Positions 6,429 to 34,419 of a stretch of 34,485 bases of DNA are shown piece after piece; the stretch's first letter is position 1, and each line of letters starts with the position of its first letter. The stretch is from NCBI GenBank assembly GCA_017936375.1, contig JAGBFR010000015.1, forward strand, positions 1 to 34,485. The letters are read 5' to 3'. This stretch comes from Clostridia bacterium. Its GTDB lineage: Bacteria; Bacillota; Clostridia; Christensenellales; Aristaeellaceae. The position numbers and the translations under genes are program-made. Under the pieces are notes generated by a model that did not search any database, was not told the origin of the DNA, and saw nothing but the letters and a program-made list of their open reading frames with translations.

Positions 6429-6446
6429 ATCCAAAAGGAGTACTCC

Positions 6447-7412
6447 ATGGCATCACATTTTGCGTTATTCGTGGATCTGGAGAACTGCGGCGGAAAGAAG
6501 AGCATGCTGCTTGACATCATCGAGCGCGTGAAGATCCGCGGCGACATCCTCATCGGCAAGGTCTACGGCTATACGGACAGCTATTCCGACCTGAAGGAGA
6601 CGCTGCTGTCCAATACCTTCACCGTCGTGCCGAGCCTGCGCTACGGCCGCAGCCAGAAGAACAGCATGGACATCCAGCTGGTCATCGACGCGCTGGACGT
6701 CGCCTACCGCAATGAGCTGATCGACAGCTTCTGCATCGTTTCGGGCGACAGCGACTATGTGCCGCTGGTGGGCAAGCTCAAGAGCATGGGCAAATTCGTG
6801 CTGGGCATCTCCCGCAGCGAGGCGGCCTCCGGCGTATTCATGAATGCCTGCAGCGAGTTCCAGTTTCTGGAGAGCGTGAAGGCGGGCAAGGAGCGCACCG
6901 CCGCGCCCGTGGGCGAGGCGCTGACCCTCGCGGACGTGAACAGCATGATCGTCACCATCCTGGGCGAGAGCGACAGCGAGATGCTCGCCTCCGAGGTCAA
7001 GGGCACGCTGCTGCGCCTGCGGCCGGACTTTTCGGAGAAGAGCGTCGGCTATTCGACCTTCGGCAAGCTGCTTGCGCGGCTCTCCCAGCAGTTCGGCTCG
7101 TTCTCGCTGATGAGCGAGGGTTATAACCTCTACATCAGCCTCAATCAGGCGCACGGCGGCGCGCATGAGGCGCTGACGAAGGACAATTATGTGCAGGTCT
7201 TTGCGCGCATCCTCGCCGAGTACAGGGACGACGGCTTTGAGCGGGTCAATCCCTCGCTGCTCAAGGCGGCTGTGATTTCCGAATACCCCGATTTCACCGA
7301 GCGGCAGACGGGGCACAGGCGCTTTTCCGATATCCTGCGCGCGCTCGAGCGAGAGCGCCTGCTGCGCCTTGAGACGGACGAGAGCGGCAATATGCTCGTG
7401 AGCATCCTGTGA
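6447..7412 (+). CDS. NYN-domain ribonuclease-like protein with C-terminal OST-HTH/LOTUS domains
   Basis: The 321-residue product begins with FALFVDLENC (D10), continues with SMDIQLVIDALD and IVSGDSDYVPLV (D101, D103), and so carries the acidic residues of the NYN/PIN-like nuclease fold (LabA/Limkain-like). Two repeats in the C-terminal half (about 160-235 and 248-321), each with a winged-helix look such as LLRLRPDFSEKSVGYSTFGK and LLKAAVISEYPDFTERQ, match OST-HTH/LOTUS domains, which bind RNA. The whole is the usual two-part layout of bacterial NYN-LOTUS proteins, expected to be cytoplasmic RNA-processing factors. The ribosome site AAAGGAG lies a few bases before the ATG. It sits 18 bases after the CapA gene and just ahead of an exported protein gene. 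Confidence 0.88.
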   Translation: MASHFALFVDLENCGGKKSMLLDIIERVKIRGDILIGKVYGYTDSYSDLKETLLSNTFTVVPSLRYGRSQKNSMDIQLVIDALDVAYRNELIDSFCIVSGDSDYVPLVGKLKSMGKFVLGISRSEAASGVFMNACSEFQFLESVKAGKERTAAPVGEALTLADVNSMIVTILGESDSEMLASEVKGTLLRLRPDFSEKSVGYSTFGKLLARLSQQFGSFSLMSEGYNLYISLNQAHGGAHEALTKDNYVQVFARILAEYRDDGFERVNPSLLKAAVISEYPDFTERQTGHRRFSDILRALERERLLRLETDESGNMLVSIL

Positions 7413-7468
7413 GCTATCTGCCGGACAGAACAGAATTTAGCCGGATTGCATCCGGACAGGTGGAACAG

Positions 7469-8992
7469 ATGAAAAGGACGCTGATTCTCATTTCCCTGCT
7501 GGCGCTGCTGGCGCTGGCCCCCTGCGCTGCGGCGCAGCGGATCGACATGCCCTCCGCCGCGCTGGCCTTTGAATACCCGGACAGCTGGCTCGTCCTCTCT
7601 CCGCAGCTGGCGGGGGTCTATGCGCCCCTGCTTGCTGAGCGCGGGATCGACGCGCAGGTGCTCTCCGAGGAGATGGCGCGCCAGGGCGTGCTCAGCCGCG
7701 CCTACAGCCCGGACTTTGCCCAGCAGCTGACGGTGCTCATGCGCGAGGACGACATGGCGACGGATATCTTTGACATCGCCTCCGTCACCGACGAGCAGCG
7801 AAAGACCATCCGCACCCGCGCACAGAACGGGCGCTACTTTGAGACGACCGGCTACCGCGTGCAGGATATCGAATGGCAGAAGGAGGGCGGGGTCTACTGG
7901 CTCTACCTCCACTATACGATCACGAAGTCCGATCAGCTGATCGGCCGGGGCGTGCGGTATATGACCATCCGCAACGGGCGCTTTGTGATCCTTGACTGGC
8001 AGATCGACACGGGCCGCTTCACCAACCGCGATCTGGCGGGCTTCAGAAAGCGCATCGCCGACCTCACCGTCACCAGGACGCTGGAGGCGCCCATGCGCGC
8101 CGTGCGCCTTGAGGCGGATATTCCGACGGAGACGATCACCTCCGAGCTGGAGATCACCGGCACGGCGACGGACAACGCGACGCTCGTCGCCTCCATCCCA
8201 GACGGCAAGGGCGGGCAGCGCATCCTCTCCGTCGGTCAGGCGGGCGCAAACGGCCGCTTCACCCTGATCGTTCCGCTGGAGGAGGAGGGCGTCTTTGACC
8301 TGACGCTCACCGCCAGCCGGGAGAATATGCTCGAGACGAGCGTGGCGGGCAGCGTCAGCTACAGCGCGAAGACGCTCCCCGTGAGCCTTGTCGGCGCGGC
8401 GGAGGGCGAGGTGACCATCATCACCGGCAGCGAGGTCAAGCTCTCGGGCAGCACGCTGGCCGGCGTGCAGATGCAGCTCGTTTCCCCCTTCGGCCTGACG
8501 AAGAAGCGCACGCAGAACGACGGCGCCTTCTCCTTCACTCTCTCTACGGAAAATGAGGGCGAGTACAACTATGTGCTCATCCTCGATAAGAAGGGCTTTG
8601 AGCAGCGGCGCATCCAATTCACCCTCCGCCGCGTGATGACCGACGAGCAGACGCGCGAGCAGATCAAGGACGGCGCGGAGAAGATCTCCTATAAGAACCT
8701 GCAGAAGGCGCGCGGGGAGGACTACGGCAAGGTCATGGTCATCTATGGCCCGGTGACGGAGCTCTCCGACGGCGGCGGGCAGTACTACATGCGCATGCAG
8801 TACAACAAGGACGCGCAGGGCACATGGTATAACGAGATCGTCGTCGTGGCGGGCGAGGATATGGGCGTGAAGGTCGGCGATATGGCGACCGTCGTGGCGA
8901 GCGTCGCCGGCGTCTATGAGGAGCAGGATGCCAACGGCGACCCGGTGATGGTACCGCGCTTTGAGCTTATGTTCGTGGACAAGGTGGAATGA
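7469..8992 (+). CDS. Exported protein of unknown function with Ig-like repeats
   Basis: From the ATG at 7469 the product is 507 residues and opens with a classical signal peptide (MKRTLILISLLALLALAPCAAAQ), cleavable after an Ala. An alternative start at 7409 (GTG overlapping the previous stop) would add 20 polar residues in front of the signal, so it is less likely. An alpha/beta region (about 25-215) resembles surface proteins that bind or sense something outside the cell. One or two beta-rich Ig/carboxypeptidase-regulatory-like domains follow (about 220-390, with repeats like ELEITGTATDNATLV and SEVKLSGSTLAGVQ). The C-terminal domain (about 395-507) has an OB-like look. No catalytic motif was recognised. 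It closes a probable operon with the CapA and NYN genes. Confidence 0.6.
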   Translation: MKRTLILISLLALLALAPCAAAQRIDMPSAALAFEYPDSWLVLSPQLAGVYAPLLAERGIDAQVLSEEMARQGVLSRAYSPDFAQQLTVLMREDDMATDIFDIASVTDEQRKTIRTRAQNGRYFETTGYRVQDIEWQKEGGVYWLYLHYTITKSDQLIGRGVRYMTIRNGRFVILDWQIDTGRFTNRDLAGFRKRIADLTVTRTLEAPMRAVRLEADIPTETITSELEITGTATDNATLVASIPDGKGGQRILSVGQAGANGRFTLIVPLEEEGVFDLTLTASRENMLETSVAGSVSYSAKTLPVSLVGAAEGEVTIITGSEVKLSGSTLAGVQMQLVSPFGLTKKRTQNDGAFSFTLSTENEGEYNYVLILDKKGFEQRRIQFTLRRVMTDEQTREQIKDGAEKISYKNLQKARGEDYGKVMVIYGPVTELSDGGGQYYMRMQYNKDAQGTWYNEIVVVAGEDMGVKVGDMATVVASVAGVYEEQDANGDPVMVPRFELMFVDKVE

Positions 8993-9089
8993 TCTCTCAC
9001 GTCGGTAGAGGATGGCGGCGGGAAACGTGCTATCCTGTGTGCATTCCCCCGGATGACCGGAGGGCTGCATAGGATGGGAGGCGATTTCG

Positions 9090-9842
9090 GTGAAAGAGAA
9101 ATGGACCCGATTCTGCGCATGGGTGGGCAGGCATTGGAAGGCGCTGCTGATCTGCCTGCTTGGCGCCGCTGCGCTGTATGCCGTCAATGAGGAGCTGCTT
9201 CTGCTGCTGGTGGTCATGACGCCGGTGGTTGGCGCGCTGGCCTTCGTGTTTGAGCGCATTCATGCATGGGGCCGTGCCCGGGCTGAGGAGCGCAGCGAGC
9301 AATACCGCCCCCTCTCGCGGATGCAGCTGCTGCAGCTGAAATGGGAGAGGCGATCCATGGAGAGGGCAAAGGCAAAGCAGAAGCCCGAGCCGGCGCCGAA
9401 GCCGGAGTCAAAACCCGAGCCAGCGCCGCAGCCGGAGCCTGAGCCCAAACCCGAGCCTAAACCCGAGCCGATAAACAGGCCTGCGCCGCAGCTGCGCACG
9501 CTGTTCACCGCGGCGGGGAAGGGCTATGCCGCTGAGGGACAGCTCAAGGAGAATGGGACCCCGACCGAGCGCGTCAATACCGACTGCTATGGGCGTACGG
9601 TGCTCTGCCTGCGCGAGCGCTTCCCCTGCTTTGACAGCTATGATTTCCTCTATGAGGACCGCTACTACCGCTGGTATTTTATCCTGCAGGACGGCGCGCT
9701 CACGCTGGTGCGCACGCAGGATGACAGCAGCGAGTATGCCGTCACGGAGCGCATCACGCGCGCGCAGTGGGAGCGCTGCGGACTGGACGGCTACAACAGG
9801 GACGTCTTTGTGAAGCTCGGCTTTGAGCAGTATCTTTCATAA
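9090..9842 (+). CDS. Membrane-anchored protein with KPEP-rich linker
   Basis: A GTG start at 9090 preceded by GGGAGG (9076-9081) opens a 250-residue product. Two hydrophobic segments (about 16-32 and 36-55) anchor it. A charged stretch follows, then a proline-rich tract of KPEP/QPEP repeats (about 95-130), and a C-terminal globular domain (about 135-250) rich in Tyr, Arg and Asp with no recognised motif. The proline tract likely acts as a stiff spacer between membrane and globular domain. No family could be assigned. It is transcribed alone: a terminator follows and about 100 bases without a gene precede it. Confidence 0.6.
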   Translation: MKEKWTRFCAWVGRHWKALLICLLGAAALYAVNEELLLLLVVMTPVVGALAFVFERIHAWGRARAEERSEQYRPLSRMQLLQLKWERRSMERAKAKQKPEPAPKPESKPEPAPQPEPEPKPEPKPEPINRPAPQLRTLFTAAGKGYAAEGQLKENGTPTERVNTDCYGRTVLCLRERFPCFDSYDFLYEDRYYRWYFILQDGALTLVRTQDDSSEYAVTERITRAQWERCGLDGYNRDVFVKLGFEQYLS

Positions 9843-17990: not shown

Positions 17991-18035
17991 TGGCGCACCC
18001 ATCGGGAGTCGAACCCAAGGCCTTCCGCTTAGGAG
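17991..18035 (-). tRNA. 3' half of tRNA-Arg(CCT), split by an integrated element (attL)
   Basis: Read on the minus strand this stretch gives an anticodon loop CTCCTAA (anticodon CCT), the 3' anticodon stem GCGGA, a 5-base variable loop, and a T arm TTGGG-TTCGACT-CCCGA. The acceptor strand TGGGTGC, a discriminator G and an encoded CCA complete the 3' half. The 5' half is missing: the bases upstream of the anticodon loop (GTTTA) cannot form the stem. This is what remains when an element integrates into a tRNA gene and carries a replacement 3' end at its other side, outside this window. Confidence 0.88.
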
Positions 18036-21120: not shown

Positions 21121-21216
21121 TGGAAAGCGAAGGCGTAATATGCACGAAATAGAGCCGATGAGGCTCAAAACAAGATGATCCGGCTGCCTTTGCTTGGCAA
21201 CGGATGAAACGAGGAC

Positions 21217-21237
21217 AGCGCTCATTGGAGCGTTTTT
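21217..21237 (+). terminator. Leader hairpin with T-run ahead of the HTH replication-type gene
   Basis: AGCGCTC and GAGCGTT pair (7 bp with one G-T) around a 4-base loop, followed by five T residues ending at 21237. The ribosome site AAAGGAG of the next gene begins about 16 bases later, so any transcript entering from upstream must pass this terminator before reaching the gene. Confidence 0.65.
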
Positions 21238-21268
21238 ATTTTGCCTAGAAACGAAAGGAGAAGAGAAT

Positions 21269-22123
21269 ATGTCGGTTTGCAGAGTGGTCAAGACCAGAGA
21301 CTTTACGATCATGTCGAATCATCACCTGAAGAACAAGAATCTGTCGCTCAAGGCGAAGGGATTGCTCAGCTATATGCTGTCGCTGCCGGAGGACTGGAAC
21401 TATACGATTGGTGGCCTGACAGTGGTCTGCATGGAGGGCAGGGACGCGATCCGCGAAGCGGTCAAGGAACTGGAACGGCAGGGCTACGTCGTGCGTACCC
21501 GCGTCCGCGATGAGCAGGGGCGGTTGCGCAATGCGGAATACACGATCTATGAGGTGCCGCATTCTGCGCAGGAGAAACCTGCGTCGGAGAATCCTGAACA
21601 GGAAAAAGCTATGCAGGAGAAGTCTATACAGGAGGTTTCTGTGCAGGAGAATCCCAGACAATTAAATACTAAACAAGTGATTACGTACCCATCCAAAACG
21701 TATAAACCCAATACTCATGCAGAAAATCCTAATCAATCCAATCCTAATCCATCGATCTGCGTGCAACGGGAGAGCATGGAGGAGCTGCGAGAGACGATCC
21801 GGGAGAATATCGGCTATGATTGCCTTGTCAATGAATTCAACCGTCAGCGCTTGGATGAAATCGTGGAGCTGATTGTGGAGACGCTATCGACCAGCGGCGA
21901 AACGATCACAATCTCCGGTGAGGCGTATCCTGCTGCGCTTGTGCGGCAGCGTTTCATGCAGATCAACAGTCTGCATATCGAATACATCTTCTCCTGCCTC
22001 GAAAAGAGCGGCAGCGACATCCGCAACATCAAGCGGTATCTGCTGACGACGCTGTTCAACGCGCCGGCGACCATGAACAGCCACTATGACGCGATGGTGC
22101 GGCATGACATGCAGGAGTGGTAA
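21269..22123 (+). CDS. Helix-turn-helix replication-initiator-like protein (DUF6017-type C-terminus)
   Basis: The product is 284 residues from the ATG at 21269, which follows AAAGGAG at 9 bases; in-frame codons back to 21194 cross the leader hairpin and are not used. The N-terminal 95 residues (VVKTRDFTIMSNHHLKN, LSLKAKGLLSYMLSLPEDW, REAVKELERQGYV) form a winged helix like those of plasmid and ICE replication initiators. A low-complexity Gln-Glu-rich linker (about 100-135) follows, with degenerate repeats of (M/I/V)QE(K/N). The C-terminal domain (about 170-284, NIGYDCLVNEF, EYIFSCLEKSG, IKRYLLTTLFNAP) matches the DUF6017 region found in the same proteins. It is likely a DNA-binding factor for the element's replication or control. 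Confidence 0.85.
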   Translation: MSVCRVVKTRDFTIMSNHHLKNKNLSLKAKGLLSYMLSLPEDWNYTIGGLTVVCMEGRDAIREAVKELERQGYVVRTRVRDEQGRLRNAEYTIYEVPHSAQEKPASENPEQEKAMQEKSIQEVSVQENPRQLNTKQVITYPSKTYKPNTHAENPNQSNPNPSICVQRESMEELRETIRENIGYDCLVNEFNRQRLDEIVELIVETLSTSGETITISGEAYPAALVRQRFMQINSLHIEYIFSCLEKSGSDIRNIKRYLLTTLFNAPATMNSHYDAMVRHDMQEW

Positions 22124-22598: not shown

Positions 22599-22946
22599 AT
22601 GAGTGACAACAAGAGAGAAACGAGAACCAAGCGGATGAAGGTGCACCTGACGCCGCAGGAGCATGAGTGGATCAAGGAGAAGATGGTGCAGGCGGGCATG
22701 ACGAACATGAGTGAGTTTATCCGCAGGATGGCTATGAACGGGTATGTGATCAATGCGGATCAACCGGAGCTTGATGAGATCCTTCGGCTGATGCACTACA
22801 CGGGGAACAACCTCAGGCAGATTGAAAAGCATGTGCGCGAGAATGAGCTGGAGCATATGGCCGAGGTGGAGCAAATGATCCGGAATCATGAGGAGATCGA
22901 GGATACCCTGGGTGAGATCCTCAGGATCCTCGGTAAGCTTTCGTGA
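22599..22946 (+). CDS. mobC: MobC-like relaxosome accessory protein
   Basis: The 115-residue product starts with a basic segment (KRETRTKRMKVHLTPQEHEW), then a ribbon-helix-helix-type region (MTNMSEFIRRMAMNGYVI), and a MobC signature (LMHYTGNNLRQIEKHVREN). It ends in an acidic helical tail. MobC proteins bind the transfer origin and open the DNA so that the relaxase can cut. AAGAAAGGAG precedes the ATG, after a hairpin and T-run. The relaxase lies 1.8 kb downstream, with the oxidoreductase and a small gene in between. Confidence 0.9.
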   Translation: MSDNKRETRTKRMKVHLTPQEHEWIKEKMVQAGMTNMSEFIRRMAMNGYVINADQPELDEILRLMHYTGNNLRQIEKHVRENELEHMAEVEQMIRNHEEIEDTLGEILRILGKLS

Positions 22947-23019: not shown

Positions 23020-24318
23020 ATGGACTCGATATGGACGATTTCGGCGCAGCTGCCGTCCTTTGAGCCGCTCAAAGAGGATATCAAAACGGATGTGCTGATC
23101 ATAGGCGGCGGATTGGCGGGGCTTTTGTGCGCATGGCGTCTGAAACAAGCGTGTGTGGATGTTACGCTGGTGGAAGCGGATACGATTTGCAACGGCATCA
23201 CGAAGAACACGACCGCCAAGATCACATCCCAGCATGGGCTGGTGTATGATGCGCTGATCCGCAAGATGGGCGCAGAAAAGGCAAAGCTCTATCTGCAGGC
23301 CAACCAGAGCGCTCTGCAGCGGTACAGGGAGATTTGCCGGGAGATCGATTGCGACTTTGAGGAGCAGGACGCCTTTGTCTATGCGCTGCATGATCGGCAG
23401 AAGATCGACAGGGAACTGGAAGCGCTGCAAAGGCTTGATTTCGATGCGACGTTTGCAAAGGATCTGCCGCTGCCATTTCCGGTGGCCGGAGCGGTGAAGT
23501 TTTCGAATCAGGCGCAGTTCCATCCGCTGAAGTTTGCGGCTGGGATTGCGAAAGACCTTCGGATTTACGAACACACCAAGGTGCGGGAACTGATGCCGGG
23601 GAAAGCCATCACAAACGGCGGGACGATTTCAGCAAAGAAGATCATCATCGCCACGCATTTTCCGATGATCAATAAGCATGGCGGCTATTTCATCAAGCTG
23701 TACCAGCATCGCTCCTATGTGCTGGCGCTGAAAAATGCGCCGTCCTTTGATGGGATGTATTTGGACGAAGATGAGAAAGGACTGTCCTTCCGGTACTATA
23801 AGGACATGCTGCTGCTTGGTGGCGGCAGCCATCGCAGCGGCAAACAGGGCGGGAACTGGCATGAGCTGGAGCGGTTTGCCAGACAGCATTATCCTGATGC
23901 AGAAATCGCTGCGCGCTGGGCGACACAGGACTGCATGACGCTGGATCATGTGCCCTACATCGGCCAGTATGCGAAGAACACGCCGGATTTGTTCGTGGCT
24001 ACGGGATTCAACAAATGGGGCATGACGACTTCGATGGTGGCGGCAGATATTCTGACCGATCTGGTGCAGGAGAAGAAGAATCCCTATGCCGTCGTGTTTG
24101 ATCCGTCCCGAAGCATCCTGCATCCGCAGCTTTTCCTGAACGCTGCCGAAAGCACGATTAACCTGCTGACACCGACTGTGCCGCGCTGCCCGCACATGGG
24201 CTGTGCGCTCAAGTACAACAAGGCTGAGCATACCTGGGATTGCCCTTGCCACGGCTCGCGCTTTGCGGAGGACGGAACGCTCATCGACAATCCGGCGACG
24301 GATGATAAAAGAATGTGA
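23020..24318 (+). CDS. FAD-dependent oxidoreductase with C-terminal Rieske 2Fe-2S domain
   Basis: The 432-residue product opens with a DAO-type FAD/NAD fold (IIGGGLAGLLCAWRLK, then VTLVEADTICNGITKNTTAK). Family stations such as RSYVLALKNAP and LGGGSHRSGKQGG follow. It ends in a Rieske domain with C390-x-H392 (CPHMGC) and C408-x2-H411 (CPCHGS), which ligate a 2Fe-2S cluster. Electrons would pass between the cluster and FAD to oxidise an amine or similar substrate. The architecture is that of the known FAD/Rieske YhfW-like family; the substrate is unknown. GAGGTGAGG precedes the ATG. It sits between mobC and the relaxase gene as passenger cargo of the element, in the same direction and probably cotranscribed. 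Confidence 0.88.
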   Translation: MDSIWTISAQLPSFEPLKEDIKTDVLIIGGGLAGLLCAWRLKQACVDVTLVEADTICNGITKNTTAKITSQHGLVYDALIRKMGAEKAKLYLQANQSALQRYREICREIDCDFEEQDAFVYALHDRQKIDRELEALQRLDFDATFAKDLPLPFPVAGAVKFSNQAQFHPLKFAAGIAKDLRIYEHTKVRELMPGKAITNGGTISAKKIIIATHFPMINKHGGYFIKLYQHRSYVLALKNAPSFDGMYLDEDEKGLSFRYYKDMLLLGGGSHRSGKQGGNWHELERFARQHYPDAEIAARWATQDCMTLDHVPYIGQYAKNTPDLFVATGFNKWGMTTSMVAADILTDLVQEKKNPYAVVFDPSRSILHPQLFLNAAESTINLLTPTVPRCPHMGCALKYNKAEHTWDCPCHGSRFAEDGTLIDNPATDDKRM

Positions 24319-24705: not shown

Positions 24706-26106
24706 ATGGCTACGACGCGCATCATGCCGCTGCACGTCGGCAAGGGAAGAACGGTGGACAGGGCAATCAGCGCAATCATCGATTATGTGGAGAATTCGGC
24801 AAAGACGGATGGTGGGCAGTTGATCACAAGCTTTGCCTGCAACAGCCGTCTGGTGGACGCAGAGTTTTTGTATGCCAAGCAGCGCTATATCCGCAACACG
24901 GGTCGTACGCGCGGAAAGGACGACGTGATTGCCTATCACCTGCGGCAGGCGTTTGTTCCCGGCGAAATCACGCCGGAGGAAGCCAATCGTCTTGGGCAGG
25001 AACTGGCAAAGCGATTCACAAAGGAGAATCATGCGTATATCGTGTGCACACATGTAGATCGCAAGCACATTCATAATCACATCATCTGGAACGCGGTGTC
25101 GCTCGACTGTGATCGCAAGTTCAGAAACTTCTGGGGAAGTTCAAAGGCTGTACGTAAACTGAGTGATACGATCTGCATTGAAAACGGCTATTCCATCGTG
25201 GAGAATCCCAAAGAGCATAGTGGCAAGAGCTACGATCAATGGCTGGGTGATCAGAAGAAGCCTTCGCACAGAGAATTGCTGCGCATGACGATTGATCAGG
25301 CGATGGAGCAAAAGCCCAAGAGTTTTGATGATCTGCTTGCCATGTTGCACGACGCCGGTTATGAGGTCAAGCCAGAGAAGAATCCTTCGTTCCGGGGAGA
25401 AGGGCAGAAACGGTTTGTCCGGATGGACACGTTGGGTGAGGATTATACCAAGGAAGCGCTTATTGCTGTTCTGAACGGTGAAAAGAAGCATATGCCGCGC
25501 AGACAGAGTGTACAGGCGACAGTGCAGAAGCCGAATTTGCTCATTGATATCCAGCAGAAGCTTCAGCAGGGAAAAGGTGCAGGCTATGAGCGCTGGGCGA
25601 AGGTGTTCAATCTCAAACAGATGGCACAGAGCATGAACTATCTGCAGGAGCATGGGCTCATGGAGATGGATGCGCTTGTGCAGAAGTCGGATGAAGCTGT
25701 CGAGAGATATCATGAACTGGCAAAGCAGATCAGAACGATTGAGGATCGGATGGATGAGATATCGGCGCTCCGCGGTCATATCCTGACGTACATCAAGACG
25801 CGGGATGTGTATGCGGCGTATTGCAAGGCGGGATATTCTAAGAAGTTTTACATAGAGCATGAAAGTGACATCCTTCGGCATAAGGCTGCGAAGAAAGCGT
25901 TTGATGAGCTGGGGCTGCAGAAGCTGCCGACGATCAAACGGCTGCAGGATGAATATGCTAGGCTGTTTGAAGAAAAGAAAAAGGCGCTTCCGGAGTACCG
26001 GAAAGCGCGCGATGAGATGCGGGAGCTGCTGACAGTGAAAGCGAATGTAGAAAGTATATTGAGGCTGGATGAACATGATCATGGCAAGAAACATGTACGC
26101 GAATAA
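24706..26106 (+). CDS. MOBP-type relaxase / mobilization nuclease
   Basis: The 466-residue product has an N-terminal relaxase domain of the MobA/VirD2 type. Tyr27 in IIDYVEN is the candidate nicking tyrosine (motif I). H116-x-D118-x2-H121-x-H123-x-H125 in THVDRKHIHNHI is the metal-binding histidine motif III. It would nick the transfer origin and lead the strand into a recipient through a coupling protein supplied elsewhere. The second half is a long charged coiled-coil region (about 300-466) with no extra catalytic domain. GGGAGAGATGGA precedes the ATG, and a hairpin with a T-run precedes that. It follows mobC, the oxidoreductase and a small gene in the same direction. Confidence 0.92.
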   Translation: MATTRIMPLHVGKGRTVDRAISAIIDYVENSAKTDGGQLITSFACNSRLVDAEFLYAKQRYIRNTGRTRGKDDVIAYHLRQAFVPGEITPEEANRLGQELAKRFTKENHAYIVCTHVDRKHIHNHIIWNAVSLDCDRKFRNFWGSSKAVRKLSDTICIENGYSIVENPKEHSGKSYDQWLGDQKKPSHRELLRMTIDQAMEQKPKSFDDLLAMLHDAGYEVKPEKNPSFRGEGQKRFVRMDTLGEDYTKEALIAVLNGEKKHMPRRQSVQATVQKPNLLIDIQQKLQQGKGAGYERWAKVFNLKQMAQSMNYLQEHGLMEMDALVQKSDEAVERYHELAKQIRTIEDRMDEISALRGHILTYIKTRDVYAAYCKAGYSKKFYIEHESDILRHKAAKKAFDELGLQKLPTIKRLQDEYARLFEEKKKALPEYRKARDEMRELLTVKANVESILRLDEHDHGKKHVRE

Positions 26107-26149
26107 TATCATAGATGAACAGATTCAATCAGAACTTTACAACCCATTG

Positions 26150-26236
26150 TTCCGAATAATGCGATACTTTATTCCGAATAAAAGGTTGATATTATTCCGA
26201 ACAAAGCATATAATATTATCAAAGAGTTTGTTCGGA
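26150..26236. repeat. TTCCGAAYAA repeats upstream of the HTH/AAA-like gene
   Basis: TTCCGAATAA at 26150-26159 and 26172-26181 and TTCCGAACAA at 26195-26204 are spaced by 22 and 23 bases. An inverted copy, TTGTTCGGA (26228-26236), runs into the ribosome site of the next gene. Two-turn spacing and the position suggest an operator, possibly for the HTH domain of the protein encoded just downstream. Confidence 0.6.
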
Positions 26237-26245
26237 GGTGCGCTT

Positions 26246-28135
26246 ATGGCGGGGATTATGACAGTGAAAGAAGCGGCAAAGAGATGGGATGTCTCTGAAC
26301 GCAGAATCGGTATTCTTTGCCAGGAAGGACGCATTCCCGGTGCCTATAAAGAAGGGCGGCGCTGGCTTATTCCGGATGACGCCGAAAAGCCAGTGGATCA
26401 ACGCAGGAAGAATCAAAGGCCTGTTGCTATCGTAAAAGCTGGAGCGAGAAAGAAGCTGCCGCTGCCGATTGGGATTTCGGATTATCGTAAAGCGTCGAGC
26501 CAGTATTATTATGTGGACAAGACGCTGCTGATCCGCGACTTCATCGATGAGCGACCGCAGGTATCGCTGTTTACTCGTCCGCGCCGATTTGGTAAAACGC
26601 TGAACATGGACATGCTGCGCGTGTTCTTTGAGAAGACGGATGAGGATACGTCGGTTTATTTCCGGGACAAAAAGATCTGGGCTTGCGGAGAGGAATATCG
26701 CAGATATCAGGGCAAATACCCGGTTATCTATATTACGTTTAAGGACGTGAAATTTGAAACCTGGAATGACACCTATGATATGGTTTCAAAGATTCTGCGC
26801 AGTGAGTTCCAGCGGCACAGTGAGCTGCTGGATAGCGAACGTATCAGTCCCTATGATAAGAAGTATCTGACGCAGGTGCTCGGTGGTGATGCCAATGAAA
26901 CGGACATGGCAATGTCGCTGCTGAACCTGTCCAGAATGCTGCATGAACATCACGGGGTGGAACCGATCATCATCATTGATGAATATGATACACCGATTCA
27001 ACAGGGCCACATGCTGGGATATTACGATCAGGTGGTTGGCTTCATGCGCATCCTGTTTTCTGGTGGCTTGAAGGATAATTCTCATTTGTCGTATGGTTTC
27101 CTGACGGGCATTCTGCGCGTGGCGAAGGAGAGTATCTTCAGCGGTCTCAACAACCTGAAGATCAATTCTATTCTGGATCATCGATACAGCGAATACTTCG
27201 GTTTTACGGCGGATGAAGTGCGGCAGATGGCGGCGTACTACGGGGCTGAAGAAAAGTACGATGAGATATGCGAGTGGTATGACGGTTATCGCTTTGGCAG
27301 AACGGAGATATTCAATCCGTGGTCAGTGATTGGATATTTCAGTAATGAGTGCATCCCGCGAGCGTTCTGGCAATCAACCGGCAGCAACGATATTATAGGA
27401 GAGATTCTTGCAAATGCGACGCCGGACATCATGGAGAAGCTGGAAGCTATTATGCAGGGACACTCGTTTGTAACGCACATTGATACCGGTGTGATCTATC
27501 CGCAGATTCAGAATAATCCCTCGTCGATTTATAGTTTTCTGTTGGTTGCAGGCTATCTCAAAGCTGTGACGAATGATCAGCCTTTCGGTGGCGACTACAT
27601 GTGCGAAGTGGCGCTGCCGAACAAAGAGATCTCCTATGTGTACAGCAAAGAGATTCTTGCCCGGTTTGAAAAGATGATTTCCCCTGCTGTGGCAATTGCA
27701 ATTCAGGAAGCGATCTACACGATGAATGTTCCAGTGCTGCAGAAGAGGCTTGAGAGTTTCCTGCTTGAGACGATTAGTTTCCATGATGCGGCGAATGAGA
27801 CGTTCTATCATGGGTTGGTGCTTGGTCTGTGTGCGATGATGGAAGGCAGTTATCGCATTTCGTCTAATCGTGAAGCGGGCAAAGGGCGGTTTGATATTCA
27901 GCTGCTGCCGTTGAATAGGCAGCTGCCGGGCGTTTTGATTGAGATGAAAGCTGGAAAGGATTGCAGCGAGCAGAAGTTGGAAGAACTTGCTGATACGGCG
28001 TTGGCGCAGATCAATGATCGGCGGTATAGCGTGGAGATGGCTTCGCAGGGCGTAAAGACGATTTTGAAATACGGAATCGCGTTTTCAGGAAAGGATGTGT
28101 GTGTGAAAGCGGACACAGAGACAAACGAAGAATAA
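26246..28135 (+). CDS. HTH domain + AAA-ATPase-like + PD-(D/E)XK nuclease-like protein
   Basis: From the ATG at 26246 (CGGAGGTG just upstream) the product is 629 residues. Residues 1-50 are an excisionase/MerR-type helix-turn-helix (MTVKEAAKRWDVSERRIGIL, then RRWLIPDDAEKP). From about 70 it matches the AAA-ATPase-like family: LPIGISDYRKASSQYYYVDK, the variant P-loop TRPRRFGKT (110-118) and IIIIDEYDTPIQ as Walker B. The last 100 residues are the usual PD-(D/E)XK partner, with D550 in GRFDIQ and E566-x-K568 in IEMKAG. The family is abundant and multi-copy in gut Clostridia and Bacteroidetes, with no proven role. The N-terminal DNA-binding domain is an uncommon extra. Upstream in-frame codons overlap the relaxase end and the repeats and are not used. 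Confidence 0.85.
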   Translation: MAGIMTVKEAAKRWDVSERRIGILCQEGRIPGAYKEGRRWLIPDDAEKPVDQRRKNQRPVAIVKAGARKKLPLPIGISDYRKASSQYYYVDKTLLIRDFIDERPQVSLFTRPRRFGKTLNMDMLRVFFEKTDEDTSVYFRDKKIWACGEEYRRYQGKYPVIYITFKDVKFETWNDTYDMVSKILRSEFQRHSELLDSERISPYDKKYLTQVLGGDANETDMAMSLLNLSRMLHEHHGVEPIIIIDEYDTPIQQGHMLGYYDQVVGFMRILFSGGLKDNSHLSYGFLTGILRVAKESIFSGLNNLKINSILDHRYSEYFGFTADEVRQMAAYYGAEEKYDEICEWYDGYRFGRTEIFNPWSVIGYFSNECIPRAFWQSTGSNDIIGEILANATPDIMEKLEAIMQGHSFVTHIDTGVIYPQIQNNPSSIYSFLLVAGYLKAVTNDQPFGGDYMCEVALPNKEISYVYSKEILARFEKMISPAVAIAIQEAIYTMNVPVLQKRLESFLLETISFHDAANETFYHGLVLGLCAMMEGSYRISSNREAGKGRFDIQLLPLNRQLPGVLIEMKAGKDCSEQKLEELADTALAQINDRRYSVEMASQGVKTILKYGIAFSGKDVCVKADTETNEE

Positions 28136-28206: not shown

Positions 28207-28642
28207 GTCGTATAGAGTGTGGTGCGCAAAGGCGAGGGATTGTAACATGAGCGATGTTAGATTGTAATTTGAATGTTAGATACAGAGGCTGTGTGCAGGA
28301 AATAAGAAGGAGAAATTTCGTTTCAACCTTAGATCGAAGCGTTTGAAAAACGCGCAGCTGCATGATGAAATCATGCGTTCATGGGGGATTGGGGGCAGTC
28401 CCCTCAACAAGCAGCATGTGTACTTTGGGGGTACAGATGCATTGCTTGCGTAGTTGTTTAGTGCAGGTTAAGGGTATGATAAGCGACTTGGTTAGAGTAT
28501 GTTTTTCAATTAAAAAGCAGGAGTTTTAGTTACAGTTGTCGAAGGAAACAGCGCGGTGTTCTACACCGCGCTGTTTCCTATACCCAATATTTCCTCAAGA
28601 ACAGGAATGTTAGAATAAAAATGAAGAGGGGAGGTGAAAGAC
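28207..28642. other. Gene-free stretch with a possible transfer-origin-like sequence
   Basis: No convincing gene lies here. At 28390-28403 a G-rich/C-rich palindrome (GGGGGCAGTCCCC) is followed by an interrupted inverted repeat: CAAGCAGCATGTGTAC (28408-28423) against GTACAGATGCATTGCTTG (28431-28448). Similar G-rich plus GTAC repeat sequences next to GCTTGC recur near mobilization genes of clostridial elements as I remember them, so a transfer origin is possible. A 16-bp perfect hairpin follows at 28543-28579. The GC-rich to AT-rich transition falls inside this stretch. Confidence 0.4.
28543..28579. repeat. 16-bp perfect inverted repeat at the left edge of the AT-rich cassette
   Basis: AGGAAACAGCGCGGTG (28543-28558) and CACCGCGCTGTTTCCT (28564-28579) are perfect inverted arms with a 5-base loop. 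No T-run follows on either strand, so a standard terminator is unlikely. It stands 64 bases before the AAA+ gene and could be a leader structure, a protein-binding site or a relic of insertion. Confidence 0.85.
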
Positions 28643-29602
28643 ATGGCAACAGCAGAGCATCTAAAGAACCTAATCAAAGCACATTATCAGCACGATGATG
28701 ATAAGTTTAAAACGGTTGTTTTACAAATTGCGGCCTATGAAGCAAAACATGGTCATGAAGCTTTGGCTCGGGAATTGAAGCAGTTTACTGAGAAGGTTGC
28801 TCCGGCTAGAAGTAATATTGTACGCTTGCATAACTCGAATTCCATGTTGTGCATGTCTACGCCTTCTGAGCGCATAAATGATTTAGTTGTTTCTGAAGAG
28901 ATTTCAGAACGGATTTATCGAATTCTAAGAGAGTTTGAAAATAGAAATAAACTCAGACAATATGGTTTATCTAATAGAAGAAAGATACTAATTGAAGGGA
29001 AGCCTGGAACAGGAAAAACTTTCACAGCTTCTGTTATTGCCTCCGCTTTAGAGCTTCCGCTGTACACTGTTCAGATGGACAAAGTAGTAACAAAATTCAT
29101 GGGGGAAACTAGCGCAAAACTGCGTCAGATTTTTGATGAAATTAGTAGCTCGGTGGGAGTTTACTTTTTTGATGAGTTTGATGCTATTGGGGCAGATAGA
29201 GCATTGGATAATGAAGTTGGCGAAGCTAGAAGAATTTTAAATTCATTCCTTCAGTTCATTGAACAAGACTCATCAGATAGTATCATAATAGCTGCAACAA
29301 ATAATCAAAAGCTACTTGACCAAGCATTATTTCGTCGGTTTGATGATGTATTGCATTATACGTTACCAACAGCAAAGGATATTTGTAGACTATACAATAT
29401 AAGACTAAGTTCCTTTGATCGAAATATTGTTATTACGGATAAACTGCTAAATGCTTCTCAGGGATTAAGTCAGGCAGAGATTATCAAAGTGTGTGATGAT
29501 GCAATCAAAATGGCTATTCTTACTGGAGAAGGAATAACTGAAAGACAGCTAATGATGCTTGTCAATGAACGTATTGATGCATATGGATCGAGGGAGGCTT
29601 AA
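28643..29602 (+). CDS. AAA+ ATPase (classical AAA, Vps4/FtsH-like), partner of subtilase
   Basis: The product is 319 residues from the ATG at 28643, behind AGGGGAGGTG. The first 95 residues are helical and may recruit partners or substrates. The AAA module has Walker A EGKPGTGKT (118-126), the pore-loop-like KFMGETSAKL, Walker B VYFFDEFDA (D177, E178), sensor 1 IIAATNN and the arginine fingers RRFDD (R231, R232). A small helical lid follows. It is a full classical AAA ATPase of the type that forms hexamers and threads or remodels proteins. The next gene, a subtilase, starts within its stop codon (TAATG), so the two are made together. It is AT-rich compared with the left part of the element. 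A role as the ATP-driven gate of the protease is inferred. Confidence 0.88.
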   Translation: MATAEHLKNLIKAHYQHDDDKFKTVVLQIAAYEAKHGHEALARELKQFTEKVAPARSNIVRLHNSNSMLCMSTPSERINDLVVSEEISERIYRILREFENRNKLRQYGLSNRRKILIEGKPGTGKTFTASVIASALELPLYTVQMDKVVTKFMGETSAKLRQIFDEISSSVGVYFFDEFDAIGADRALDNEVGEARRILNSFLQFIEQDSSDSIIIAATNNQKLLDQALFRRFDDVLHYTLPTAKDICRLYNIRLSSFDRNIVITDKLLNASQGLSQAEIIKVCDDAIKMAILTGEGITERQLMMLVNERIDAYGSREA

Positions 29603-32070
29603 TGATGGCAGTCGATAAGAGAAATATTTTTCTTGAACACATCAATGATGTACTGCCATATGTGTCGACTTCTAAGCAGTCAGATAAAAGCTATCCAATT
29701 CGAACTAACCCGGCGAGACATGCAGAGTATATTTCAAGGAAACTCGGCCAGTGTAATCAACAGGCATTACAGCCAAGACAAGTGGCAGCGATACGCTATA
29801 AACAAGGTGTATATCTTGAGTTCTCGGGAAAAGAAAACTACTCATTAAATGTAAGGTCACTTGAAAACTTAAGTAAGAAGATAAGATTGCTCAATGTCCG
29901 TCAAGAAGGGAACGTAGAGAAAGCAACGATTTACGTTCCGGCTGGAGAAGAGGCGTACTTCCTCGAAAAAGTTCAGGCGTACGCTGACAGTATTCTGGGT
30001 GAAGGCAATCCAAAGAATAATGATCTGGTACGTAGTATAGAAGATGTTAAGCTGGCAATTGTCGAATCATTTTGGGTAGGAGAAATTGCAGACATGCCGG
30101 CAGAAGAACCGGTATGGTGTGAGATTTGGTTGCGATTTGAGCCGGGGAAAATTGAAGAGGCAGAAGTAGAGTTTGTGTCTTCTTGTGCTGATAATCAAAT
30201 CGAAATAAAAGAAGGACATATTGTATTTCCGGAACGTGTTGTTCGAATGGGAAAGACAAATGCGGAACAACTTGAAAAATTGATTGAGAGTTGCGCATAT
30301 ATTGCTGAAATACGCAAAGCGCCAGACTCAACAGGTTTCTTTTATGATATGAATTTCCAAGAGCAACAAGAGTGGGTTGAGGAGCTTCTTTCTCGTACGG
30401 AATTCAATCCAACTAATGCGACAATATGTCTTCTGGATACCGGTATATCTGTAGCGCATCGTTTAATAAAACCAGCTGTCGAAGAGCGCTACATACAGGC
30501 TGTGGATTCTAGTTGGAATACAGGTGATCACTCGGGTCATGGAACAGAGATGGCAGGGGTTGCATTATATTTTGACTTAAAGAAACGCTTGGCTGGAAGT
30601 GAACGGAATGTGGTTTCACACTTGCTTGAGTCGGTTAAAATTCTTCCACCGACTGGAGGCAATGAACCTGCATTGTATGGGGCAATAACAGAACAAGCAG
30701 TTTTGCTTGCAGAAATTGAGAATCCAACAGCTGAGAGAACGGTGTGTATGGCTGTTACAGCTCCCAATTATAATACGGGAGATGGAAGCCCTACATCATG
30801 GTCTGGAGCAATAGATAACATTACATCGGGTGTTGACGGTAGCGGCGAAAAGAGACTTGTGCTGATCAGTGCCGGGAATGTCAATTATGATGAGTTGACA
30901 AATAGCGGTTTCCCAGAGGCTAATCGTCTTCATGGTGTGGAAAACCCTGGTCAGTCTTGGAATGCATTGACGGTAGGCGCGTATACTCGTGATATTACTG
31001 TTGATGATACTGCTTATGTAGGGTTTTCTGCGGTGGCTGATCAGGGAGATATATCACCATATAGTTCCACTTCTTATCTATGGGACTCAAAATGGCCTAT
31101 TAAGCCGGAAATTCTTCTTGATGGTGGCAATATGGTCACCAATGGACAGGATTATCTCTCTTGTCCCCCGTTGTCTCTTTTGACAACAGATAGACATCCT
31201 CTGAATTATCAATTCTCGACAATTTGGGGTACGAGTTCAGCGACTGCGCAAGCAGCCTGGATGACTGCGCAGTTATTTGCTGAATATCCTGGAATCTGGC
31301 CAGAAACTGTGCGTGCATTAATAGTTCACTCTGCACGCTGGACTTCCAAAATGATCAGTCAGTATAATGTTGATGACAAGAAAAGGAAGGGAAGACGAGA
31401 TTTACTCCGGATTTGTGGATATGGAATACCTAATCTGGATCGAGCAATACAGTGTCATAATAATTCGGTAAATATGATAGTTCAAGGAGAGCTCCAACCA
31501 TTTATTATGCATGACGGTAGGGCGCAGATGAAAGAAATGCATTTGCATCAAATTCCATGGCCTGCTGATGTGTTGCGAGAATTGGGAGAAGTTCCGGTAG
31601 AAATGCGAGTTACTCTTTCCTACTTTATTGAGCCAGGACCTGGTGAGAAGGGATGGAAGGATCGATATCGGTATCCTTCATGTGGTTTGCGTTTTGATGT
31701 GATCAATAGCGATGAGACTGTTGATGATTTTAAAAAGCGTGTTAATGTAAGAATGCGCGGAGAAGATCGAAAAGATAGTGGAGATGGAACGAGCGGAAGC
31801 GATCGCTGGTTTTTAGGAACTGCAAATCGAGATGTTGGATCGATTCACTCCGATTTTATCCGAAGCACCGCTGTTGAGTTATGCAATGCAAAATACATTG
31901 CGGTATTTCCAGTGGTAGGATGGTGGCGAGAACGGCACTATCTAGGAAAATGTAATAGCAGAATGAGATATTCGCTCGTAGTTAGTATTTCAAGTCCCAG
32001 AGTTGATATTGATTTGTATACACCAATCGTCACACAGATTTCTAATATGGTTCCAATTGAAGTGAATTGA
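29602..32070 (+). CDS. S8 (subtilisin-like) serine protease, cytoplasmic, AAA-coupled
   Basis: The 822-residue product has a central subtilase domain with the full catalytic triad: Asp279 in LLDTGIS, His313 in SGHGTEMAG and Ser545 in GTSSATA. Asn426 in ISAGN forms the oxyanion hole. The usual proline after the Ser motif is replaced (GTSSATA rather than GTSMASP). There is no signal peptide or membrane segment and no classical inhibitory propeptide. Instead about 270 N-terminal residues of unassigned fold and about 250 C-terminal residues, probably beta-rich, frame the protease. This points to an intracellular protease regulated by a partner. It starts at the TAATG overlap with the AAA ATPase gene, with GGGAGG 5 bases before. 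A strong bidirectional terminator follows. Confidence 0.9.
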   Translation: MMAVDKRNIFLEHINDVLPYVSTSKQSDKSYPIRTNPARHAEYISRKLGQCNQQALQPRQVAAIRYKQGVYLEFSGKENYSLNVRSLENLSKKIRLLNVRQEGNVEKATIYVPAGEEAYFLEKVQAYADSILGEGNPKNNDLVRSIEDVKLAIVESFWVGEIADMPAEEPVWCEIWLRFEPGKIEEAEVEFVSSCADNQIEIKEGHIVFPERVVRMGKTNAEQLEKLIESCAYIAEIRKAPDSTGFFYDMNFQEQQEWVEELLSRTEFNPTNATICLLDTGISVAHRLIKPAVEERYIQAVDSSWNTGDHSGHGTEMAGVALYFDLKKRLAGSERNVVSHLLESVKILPPTGGNEPALYGAITEQAVLLAEIENPTAERTVCMAVTAPNYNTGDGSPTSWSGAIDNITSGVDGSGEKRLVLISAGNVNYDELTNSGFPEANRLHGVENPGQSWNALTVGAYTRDITVDDTAYVGFSAVADQGDISPYSSTSYLWDSKWPIKPEILLDGGNMVTNGQDYLSCPPLSLLTTDRHPLNYQFSTIWGTSSATAQAAWMTAQLFAEYPGIWPETVRALIVHSARWTSKMISQYNVDDKKRKGRRDLLRICGYGIPNLDRAIQCHNNSVNMIVQGELQPFIMHDGRAQMKEMHLHQIPWPADVLRELGEVPVEMRVTLSYFIEPGPGEKGWKDRYRYPSCGLRFDVINSDETVDDFKKRVNVRMRGEDRKDSGDGTSGSDRWFLGTANRDVGSIHSDFIRSTAVELCNAKYIAVFPVVGWWRERHYLGKCNSRMRYSLVVSISSPRVDIDLYTPIVTQISNMVPIEVN

Positions 32071-32097: not shown

Positions 32098-32143
32098 AAA
32101 AGCCCCGCATAGATGGAGCGTTTCATCTTTGCGGGGCTTTATT
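32098..32143. terminator. Bidirectional terminator between subtilase and Sll1717-type ATPase
   Basis: AAAAGCCCCGCA pairs with TGCGGGGCTTT, and an inner AGATG/CATCT stem extends it to a long hairpin. A-run and T-run flank it, so it stops both convergent transcripts. Confidence 0.92.
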
Positions 32144-32167: not shown

Positions 32168-33748
32168 TTAAGTATCGAATTTCCTAAAAGATGCGCGGAA
32201 ATAACGAATTAGTGGATAATGAATAGTGAGTGGAGATAGTGGGTCGATATCGCGGTCACCTTTGAATACGAAACGTGGAACTTTTCCATAGTTGCCGATA
32301 ATACCTAGATCATATAAGTCTCTTAGAATTTGCGCAGGTTTATGAGAACCTTTTTTCAATACTTCTACTTCGTCAAAAACCTCTGCTTTACCATCGATTT
32401 GCGCAATGAAATCCTTCAATTCAAAAGGTATGGTTATGCCTGTTAACGCATGGCGAATTCCTTCTACTTCTTTGTCGGAGTATATTGCTGTAAGAGCTTC
32501 TTCGAATTCTGCCCAGGATTCTTCGGAATAGTGTTTTCGAATTACTTCAAAGGTTTCTTGATCGGCATAGTTTTTATCGCCTTTGATACTTTGAATTGCA
32601 GTAAACATTCGAATTATATCTCTTGGTTTTGACCATGTTTGATCGATGATATAATTACGAATATCTTTTTTCCCAGAATCCATACTTTGAACAAAGTATT
32701 CTTGCCAAATATTCTCGGTAAGGGTTAATCCGGCACGGATCTCACTATATTGGATTCGTTTTTCTAGCATTCGTAAGAGTGGATGATTATTTATATTTCC
32801 GCCATGCTGCTGCCATGAAAGCTGAATACCAAAATCATGGATTGACTTGTTGATTTCCATTCCTTTTGATTGGAATTTCTTATAAACTTCATTGCGTATT
32901 GCGGCAATAATATAAACACCAAATCCATTTTCGCGAGAGATTTCCGAAATGTACTGAATGGCAAAAATCAAATCGCGTATTAGGATGATGTCCCTTTCGT
33001 AGTTCTTTGTTCTTTTTAATGATAACTCTAATTCATCAAACAAAATGTATAGCTTATTTTCTGTGGGTTGCAGTTTCGAGTATAGATCAATTATCTTTTT
33101 TGCAACTGAACGAAAAGAAGCAGCTTTCTTTGACTGATCAAACCATTCTAATTCAACATCTAGTTTACCAATTTTGCCAATATTAACATCGACGTTTCCC
33201 TTCTTAACCTTTGGTAGGATTCTGTGTACGACGCCTGTTTTTTCAATATCATCATTATAGATTGCCAATAACAGCGCGTTTAACTCTTTCCATGTTTGGT
33301 CATCTCTCGAAAAGACACCATATTCTGTATGTCGTAAACGGCATACTATTAGCTTAATTAAATAAACTTCCCATGCGAGAATACAATTATCGCTAAAATC
33401 CGCAGGTAAGCCTTTTTCTATAACCTCTTCATGGTTTTGTTCTGATAGTGAAGTGCGTTTTATTTGACTGCGTTCTTCGTCGTCGATATCTCGTTTAAAT
33501 CGGATAAACGAAGTAAATGTTGGTTCACTGTTTTGTTGAACACGAGCTTCGAGATATTTGAGCAACATGGTTTTTCCTGTTCCCTTATCGCCACAAATAT
33601 AGTATACGAAGCCATTGATTATCCGATTGATATCAAGATTGGGATACTCAAAGAAAACATTAGCGCAGATTTCTTGACCAAATTCAAGGAATTCATTATA
33701 GGCATCAATCTTGCCAAGATAAATGTCTTTAAACTGGAGTTGTCCCAT
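32168..33748 (-). CDS. P-loop ATPase of the Sll1717 type
   Basis: The 526-residue product has Walker A CGDKGTGKT (52-60) and Walker B LYILFDELEL with D238 and E239, a layout found in STAND-like and Sll1717-type P-loop ATPases. A long helical region with a sensor-like IIAAIRNEVY stretch follows, and the C-terminal 60 residues (LRDLYDLGIIGNYGKVPRFVFKGD) look like a winged helix. Proteins of this family are found scattered in genomes and mobile elements and are suspected in phage or plasmid conflict; no mechanism is proven. CGGAGGT precedes the ATG and a consensus promoter lies 56 bases upstream. It converges on the subtilase gene and is similarly AT-rich, so it may share the cassette's origin, but need not be part of the same system. 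Confidence 0.8.
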   Translation of the reverse strand: MGQLQFKDIYLGKIDAYNEFLEFGQEICANVFFEYPNLDINRIINGFVYYICGDKGTGKTMLLKYLEARVQQNSEPTFTSFIRFKRDIDDEERSQIKRTSLSEQNHEEVIEKGLPADFSDNCILAWEVYLIKLIVCRLRHTEYGVFSRDDQTWKELNALLLAIYNDDIEKTGVVHRILPKVKKGNVDVNIGKIGKLDVELEWFDQSKKAASFRSVAKKIIDLYSKLQPTENKLYILFDELELSLKRTKNYERDIILIRDLIFAIQYISEISRENGFGVYIIAAIRNEVYKKFQSKGMEINKSIHDFGIQLSWQQHGGNINNHPLLRMLEKRIQYSEIRAGLTLTENIWQEYFVQSMDSGKKDIRNYIIDQTWSKPRDIIRMFTAIQSIKGDKNYADQETFEVIRKHYSEESWAEFEEALTAIYSDKEVEGIRHALTGITIPFELKDFIAQIDGKAEVFDEVEVLKKGSHKPAQILRDLYDLGIIGNYGKVPRFVFKGDRDIDPLSPLTIHYPLIRYFRASFRKFDT

Positions 33749-33960: not shown

Positions 33961-34419
33961 ATGGACAAGGATTTCTTCGTAAAAGAGATCGAAGCCCACA
34001 GCGGTATGTTATACCGTGTGGCCTATACGATCCTTCGAAATGATGACGCCTGCAAAGATGCGTTGCAGGATACAGCGCTGAAAGCATGGGAAAAGCGGGG
34101 AACGCTCAAAGAGCTGCGTTACTTCCGCACATGGATCACCAGGATCCTCATCAATACGTGTTATGACACGCAAAGAAAGCGCAGGCGCATGGTTTCAATC
34201 GAAGATGTTCCCGAGCCTCAAGTGGCTGCTCCTGATATCTCACTGGCAATGGCGCTGCAGTCTCTTCCGGAAAAGCTGCGGTTGCCGCTGGTGCTCTATT
34301 ATTCTGAAGGATTGACCTATGCGGAGATCGCACAAACGCTGCGTCTCCCGATGGCGACGGTGCGAGGAAGAATCCACCGTGCCAAAGGACAACTGAGAAA
34401 GGAGTTGGGTGCAGAATGA
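33961..34419 (+). CDS. ECF-type RNA polymerase sigma factor
   Basis: The 152-residue product has sigma region 2 (AYTILRNDDACKDALQDTALKAWEKRG, here split as AYTILRNDDACKDA and LQDTALKAWEK, then YFRTWITRILINTCYD) and region 4 (LPEKLRLPLVLYYSEGL, EIAQTLRLPMATVRGRIHRA) and nothing else, the short ECF layout. AAGGAG lies about 8 bases before the ATG. Its stop overlaps the next start (ATGA), so the next gene is probably its anti-sigma factor. ECF factors redirect RNA polymerase to envelope-stress or similar promoters. Whether it belongs to the element or to the chromosome is not clear. Confidence 0.9.
   Translation: MDKDFFVKEIEAHSGMLYRVAYTILRNDDACKDALQDTALKAWEKRGTLKELRYFRTWITRILINTCYDTQRKRRRMVSIEDVPEPQVAAPDISLAMALQSLPEKLRLPLVLYYSEGLTYAEIAQTLRLPMATVRGRIHRAKGQLRKELGAE

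Follow-up and report, generated by a model that had tools for sequence, protein, structure and literature searches.

What does a complete AAA ATPase gene whose stop codon overlaps the start of a subtilase gene do on a mobile element? The question is raised by positions 28,643 to 32,070 of a 34,485-nucleotide contig of a Clostridia bacterium (JAGBFR010000015.1 in assembly GCA_017936375.1; the whole contig is called the window here). A first-pass annotation, made from the sequence alone, had seen in the two genes a candidate conflict or defence module outside the named defence systems, in which an ATPase sensor would switch on an intracellular subtilase. We find that the pair is, by its sequence, a member of the broad IetAS family of PADLOC, an already named system (IetAS or SgiAT). 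We consider it probable that it forms an IetAS/SgiAT toxin-antitoxin module on a mobilisable, probably tRNA-inserted element, in which IetA would restrain an autonomously toxic IetS.

The ATPase matched the PADLOC IetA model with an E-value of 4.4e-69 (231.7 bits) and the protease matched the IetS model PDLC02198 with an E-value of 2.9e-29 (99.6 bits). The pair of plasmid pTi1D1460 (L033), which has the same protein accessions as that of pTiC58, scored 239.0 (IetA) and 85.6 bits (IetS) in PADLOC. The window proteins share 43% (IetA) and 37% (IetS, over 850 aligned columns) identity, almost from end to end, with those of pTiC58, where the AAA-S8 pair lies at 97873-101373 of NC_003065. Because an AAA-S8 pair sits on pTiC58, this would be the IetA/IetS toxin-antitoxin system of Yamamoto 2009, as cited in PMC5006074 and PMC8562856. 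The window pair also matches, below curated cut-offs, the NCBIfam families IteA and IteS, NF042959 being the top NCBIfam match of IetA. Thus, the view that it belongs to no named defence system had to be given up, while the broader proposal of a conflict or defence-type module on a mobile element, in an AAA-subtilase family that recurs, was right.

Pairing of the two genes is regular. A profile scan of genome contigs, from which the best 80 of at least 583 relatives were kept, and viral contigs, which added 48 loci, gave a total of 128 loci. In 122 of them the ATPase gene immediately precedes the protease gene, and the other 6 end at the contig edge there; the pair was also seen in all nine plasmid, phage and viral loci (viral L002 and L131, one of the 128, are a single contig). 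This count, which the first-pass annotation had proposed beforehand in the belief that AAA-subtilase pairs recur, repeats the published observation that all 187 SgiT homologues adjoin an SgiA homologue (PMC5006074). Length and coverage filters retained 106 of 129 loci (L002, L041-L168) as full-length pairs. Before sampling, six of these were set aside, one as a duplicate contig and five because their genes appeared to overlap at length and their starts were doubtful; 70 relatives picked for diversity from the remainder were then aligned with the window proteins, yielding the 71-sequence alignments used below. Over the 71 pairs, the IetA and IetS distance matrices correlate with r = 0.85, whereas none of 1000 permutations exceeded 0.25, a statistic that ignores shared descent. 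The closest relatives, among the best 80 of at least 583 and the viral loci, are 57-66% identical over IetS and come mostly from Firmicute genomes and from two viral contigs.

Could the protease be an ordinary housekeeping or secreted subtilase that happens to stand beside an unrelated ATPase? S8 proteases are common, and a loose search with the PADLOC IetS model gives matches in 78 of the 296 host-order genomes and in 5 of 14 control genomes. However, most rows in those 78 genomes cover only part of the catalytic core (loci L004-L032 were not counted as IetS), and the whole-protein IetS query matches 1 of the 296 genomes, the window's own. With the pair present wherever the contig is not cut, and in a low-GC mobile context, this explanation is barely conceivable and was rejected. 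The single match among the genomes of the order suggests that ietAS was acquired by the host lineage.

Of 72,556 plasmid records, 482 contain a match to IetS by tblastn (E 1e-5), with Klebsiella, Agrobacterium and Rhizobium among many other hosts; in 373 records the match spans 80% or more of the query, and 338 of the 482 are predicted to be conjugative. IetA-like sequences cover at least 80% of their query in 523 plasmid records (E 1e-10), compared with the 373 for IetS. SgiA homologues (412) have likewise been counted alongside 187 SgiT homologues (PMC5006074). Some of the plasmid matches may be IetA homologues standing alone or AAA proteins of another kind.

Turning to the proteins themselves, the IetS triad residues Asp279, His313 and Ser545, already picked out as intact in the first-pass annotation, are invariant in 71 of 71 aligned proteins, as is the oxyanion Asn426, and the intact triad is therefore not due to chance. 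Peptidase_S8, over residues 272-608, is the sole Pfam match at E 0.001, and a search of PDB sequences at the same threshold returned 13 subtilases and no IetAS structure. The regions flanking the catalytic domain had been described as of unassigned fold. In the predicted model (pLDDT 88.0), the catalytic domain and the C-terminal part align to the KP-43 subtilase (PDB 1wmd; VIA-align, rows mainly 248-618), so that the C-terminal part is not of unassigned fold. KP-43 is a secreted enzyme without an ATPase partner; IetS, which by its model resembles it in the catalytic and C-terminal parts, differs by about 265 extra N-terminal residues. The absence of a classical propeptide stands at the level of sequence: no I9 propeptide was found by Pfam at E 10 in the IetS segments of the window and four relatives, in a search that drops most matches above E 0.1. 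It is less secure in the model, in which residues 171-239 form a beta-alpha-beta-beta-alpha-beta block whose predicted order of secondary structure fits an I9-type propeptide, the structural rows covering mainly 248-618.

IetA appears to be a classical-type AAA+ ring ATPase. Its Walker A (GKPGTGKT) and Walker B (FDEFD) motifs and its second region of homology are intact, Lys125, Asp177, Glu178, Asn220 (sensor), Arg231 and Arg232 being invariant in 71 of 71 sequences; Pfam (E 0.001) gives AAA with 97.3 bits, plus weaker P-loop families. Residues 151-154 (K-F-M-G), which going by known AAA motifs we take to be pore loop 1, keep an aromatic-hydrophobic-Gly pattern throughout (F/Y, M/L and G, each 71/71). 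The predicted model resembles PAN, proteasomal Rpt and FtsH, with Vps4, p97 and others at similar Z, and the structural matches listed cover mainly residues 63-319. PAN and FtsH rings carry OB or membrane domains N-terminally; the IetA model instead has a short segment of three helices (4-15, 19-35 and 39-51). An MIT-like N-domain was considered for these helices, for which Pfam support was not found. The best 60 of 272 matches among PDB sequences are p97/CDC48, AFG2, NVL, Rix7 and similar proteins, with no IetAS structure among the matches listed.

These features would suit an ATP-gated protease machine, in which, on the pattern of ClpX and ClpP, an IetA ring recognises an invader protein and either unfolds and threads it into IetS or activates IetS by an allosteric route. 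The invariant ATPase residues and pore loop argue for it, as do the likeness to the protease-coupled unfoldases PAN, Rpt and FtsH (though shared at similar Z with other AAA proteins) and the occurrence of IetS with IetA in all 122 loci having enough upstream sequence. However, the protease of relatives is toxic without the ATPase, which suppresses that toxicity and acts as an antitoxin (PMC5006074, PMC8562856), and the catalytic and C-terminal parts of the IetS model align to KP-43, a single-chain subtilase. Because the relatives' protease is active without its ATPase, a protease switched on by an ATPase sensor fits poorly, and we regard such a machine as distinctly unlikely.

The published evidence on relatives bears on the toxin-antitoxin reading in several ways. 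SgiT lowers the viability of E. coli within 30 min and SgiA counteracts it, and sgiAT stabilises SGI1 in the presence of an IncA/C plasmid (PMC5006074). Mycoplasma T133 (757 aa; its partner A132 has 353 aa and there is no intergenic region) lowers E. coli by 5 logs, and by 3 logs in a different set-up, and is neutralised completely by A132; in JCVI-syn2.0, deletion of the ATPase gene alone is reported to be lethal, and the pTiC58 pair is cited as giving plasmid stability (PMC8562856). For relatives it is thus in print that the protease is toxic alone, that the ATPase neutralises it and that the pair stabilises its element; by analogy, the same may hold for the window pair. As to phage, the introduction of PMC10732053, whose reference list includes Stokar-Avihail 2023, states that ietAS is activated by components of phage replication, and ietAS stands in a review table of systems linked to functional phage proteins (PMC10286901). 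An association study links IetAS to phage resistance; no IetAS-phage lysogen was obtained, so that there was no direct test there, and the mechanism was called unknown in 2025 (PMC11878078). Passages of PMC8765062, PMC9090908 and PMC11291487 mention IetAS/Gao_Iet, in a list or by name, and say nothing further on how it works.

By this analogy, IetS would be a cytoplasmic subtilase, toxic by itself, which IetA would restrain. Upsetting the balance, by loss of the element, by a rival plasmid or by interfering phage replication proteins, would free IetS, which would then cleave cell or phage proteins and cause growth stop or death. The element would be stabilised as a result, and phage could be limited. 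What triggers the release, which proteins IetS cleaves, how the restraint is physically brought about and that the window copy works are inferred. A narrower form of this reading, which overlaps with it, would make element stability the sole selected role, phage resistance being incidental or absent in this branch. It agrees with sgiAT of SGI1, a relative of the pTiC58 pair, being an island-stability system (PMC5006074), with the plasmid stability cited for pTiC58 (PMC8562856), with the predicted conjugative nature of most plasmid carriers and with the place of the window pair on a mobilisable element. It is opposed by the naming of related pairs as anti-phage systems in PADLOC and NCBIfam and by the association with phage resistance (PMC11878078), and we hold it possible though somewhat unlikely.

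The toxin-antitoxin reading also involves the element on which the pair is carried, whose features are collected in the table. As first noticed in the initial annotation, the pair is AT-rich, with 39-43% GC, whereas the first 18 kb have 59-69%; the stretch at 17-18 kb has 59% GC and the next, at 18-19 kb, 51%, and from 28 kb on GC stays at 35-43%. The tRNA fragment, in our reading tRNA-Arg(CCU)-like, is likely the remnant of an attachment site at the left border of the element, and this much of the proposed integration at a tRNA stands. No complete tRNA was found in the window, Rfam gave no match there at gathering scores, and none of the eight matches to tyrosine integrase (PF00589) in the genome lies on the window contig, serine recombinases not having been searched. 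The contig ends at 34485, the right border presumably lying beyond it. ParB-like and TnpV genes (Pfam) are also on the element, to the right of the fragment.

Table. Features of the window around and to the left of the ietAS pair (strand cell empty where none is given; "." as reported)
Feature	Position	Strand	Evidence and remarks
tRNA 3' fragment, 45 bp, anticodon to CCA end	17991..18035	-	no second copy in the assembly (81% complete) at up to 3 mismatches
DUF6017 gene	21194-22123		Pfam; DUF6017 common to the element and the L043 neighbourhood
NikA-like mobilisation protein	22599..22946	+	Pfam PF21983, 2.1e-18
FAD-dependent oxidoreductase with C-terminal Rieske domain	23020-24318	+	Pfam; between the NikA-like and relaxase genes; odd metabolic cargo
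MobP-type relaxase	24706..26106	+	Pfam Relaxase, 3.6e-32
HTH_17, Predicted AAA-ATPase (PF09820) and PDDEXK_9 nuclease open frame	26069-28135	+	Pfam; directly upstream of the pair; no PADLOC match
Hairpin, terminator-like or regulatory	28547..28575	+	RNA fold with next 3 bases, -22.4 kcal/mol; ends about 70 bases 5' of ietA
IetA-like AAA+ ATPase, putative antitoxin/regulator, 319 aa	28643..29602	+	PADLOC IetA
IetA pore loop 1 (presumed), residues 151-154	29093..29104	+	residues counted from ATG 28643, coordinates computed from that
IetS-like S8 protease, putative toxin/effector, 822 aa	29602..32070	+	PADLOC PDLC02198, Pfam, pTiC58 homology, predicted model
IetS block, residues 171-239, directly before catalytic domain	30112..30318	+	DSSP of predicted model; no Pfam match
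IetS triad span, codons Asp279-Ser545, Asn426 inside	30436..31236	+	alignment
Strong hairpin 3' of ietS, T-rich flank	32099..32140	.	-29.2 kcal/mol with 4 flanking bases
Sll1717-family P-loop ATPase	32168-33748	-	NF047389, 236.8 bits (cut-off 75); convergent with ietS; no PADLOC match
ECF-type sigma factor	33961-34419	+	Pfam/NCBIfam; near contig end; may be element or host

The two genes overlap by 1 nucleotide within TAATG at 29600-29604 (ietA stop TAA 29600-29602, ietS ATG 29602), an arrangement that the first-pass annotation had given correctly to the base, and ietS is probably translationally coupled to ietA, the first gene. The best start of ietA is most likely ATG 28643, which has a GGGGAGG ribosome-binding site ahead of it (28628-28634); the program that listed the open reading frames chose GTG 28634, which overlaps the end of this site. 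AGGGAGG precedes the ATG of ietS. Because hairpins flank it on both sides, ietA-ietS looks like a two-gene transcription unit. The downstream hairpin is likely a terminator common to ietS and the convergent ATPase gene, and a consensus scan lists a site overlapping it on the minus strand only. A consensus promoter scan gave 12 sites versus 10.1 expected, nothing of note.

Neighbourhoods were examined in four near relatives (L121, L122, L043 and L041), of which ten neighbour proteins were scanned. In L121 (63% IetS identity) the pair lies 2.9 kb from a Phage_capsid gene (Pfam; 1992-3188 and 6102-9623), with three further large neighbours without a match, and IetAS would be phage or prophage cargo there. 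L122 (696-5369), a viral contig, has the pair (60% IetS identity) near an ABC-three-component (ABC-3C, CTD1) gene and an SMC-like ATPase gene, and in L043 a RepA_N/DUF6017 gene and a metallophosphoesterase are found near it. Thus, these three relatives sit in mobile or conflict contexts. A broader defence-island comparison used open reading frames of 150-900 aa from those of the 106 full-length pairs that lie in genome loci. Of the 186 frames no more than 2.5 kb from the pair, 90 were scanned with PADLOC (E 1e-15), as were 90 of the 93 that lie more than 4.5 kb away. Among the best 25 families of each list, hits to Type I specificity models came from 5 of the 90 near frames and from 1 of the 90 far ones, and a Type I methylase model was hit by 2 of the 90 far frames. 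PADLOC families matched numbered 187 near and 72 far, counts that do not give the number of distinct matching proteins and from which we claim no enrichment.

Several observations weigh against a restrained toxin with a role in defence. The window pair fails the cut-offs of the NCBIfam anti-phage equivalogs IteA (199.4 against 510 bits) and IteS (47.5 against 900), as do the pTi pair (198.8 and 39.9 bits) and the Klebsiella and L041 pairs. Because the window and pTi pairs both miss these cut-offs by a wide margin, the branch that NCBIfam names for anti-phage activity would be a different one from theirs. The three neighbours of the window pair that were scanned gave no PADLOC match, so that no known defence gene was found beside it; the two neighbours scanned in L041, the 66% relative, are a histidine kinase and a protein without a match, with no conflict context. 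Toxicity, neutralisation and the effect on phage would be carried over from relatives more distant than the nearest fetched (66% at best, among the best 80 of at least 583). sgiAT of SGI1, under its own promoter, gave no post-segregational killing (PMC5006074). Finally, IetA appears to keep a translocating pore loop, for which an inhibitor acting only passively would have no use.

This last point suggests another form of restraint, in which IetA would be a PAN/FtsH-type threading ring that grips and continually remodels IetS through its divergent N-terminal region, an unfoldase antitoxin and not a plug. Phage replication proteins or a lost ATPase supply would then divert the ring and leave the protease active. 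The propeptide-like block predicted in the N-terminal region of IetS might re-dock on the active site. We consider this form unlikely. The conserved aromatic pore loop and the PAN/FtsH-like fold bear on how IetA restrains IetS and on whether it ever feeds it. The analysis thus strikes the pair off as a candidate for a new defence system, the window copy being an ordinary one, and sharpens the question of the IetAS mechanism: two features, the threading pore loop conserved in IetA and the additional block predicted ahead of the IetS core, would bear on the choice between a plug-type and an unfoldase-type antitoxin.

How does the window pair compare with the known systems? It shares with IetA/IetS of pTiC58 the gene order, the AAA and S8 architecture and similar PADLOC and NCBIfam scores, but differs in host, in element type and by 57-63% sequence divergence; the pTiC58 genes are separated by a 3-nucleotide gap where those of the window overlap by 1. 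The same two families make up Gao_Iet or IteA-IteS (NCBIfam NF042959 and NF042956; PADLOC ietAS), yet the window scores far under the equivalog cut-offs. Gao_Iet was reportedly described by Gao in 2020 as an anti-phage system. By its description, SgiAT (S026/S025) of SGI1 is alike in combining an AAA antitoxin with a subtilase toxin on an integrative mobilisable element (PMC5006074), but SGI1 sits in trmE whereas the window element is probably inserted at a tRNA gene. T133/A132 of Mycoplasma mycoides subsp. capri is described with the AAA gene upstream of the S8 gene, as in the window (PMC8562856); that pair is chromosomal, whereas the window pair is on a mobilisable element.

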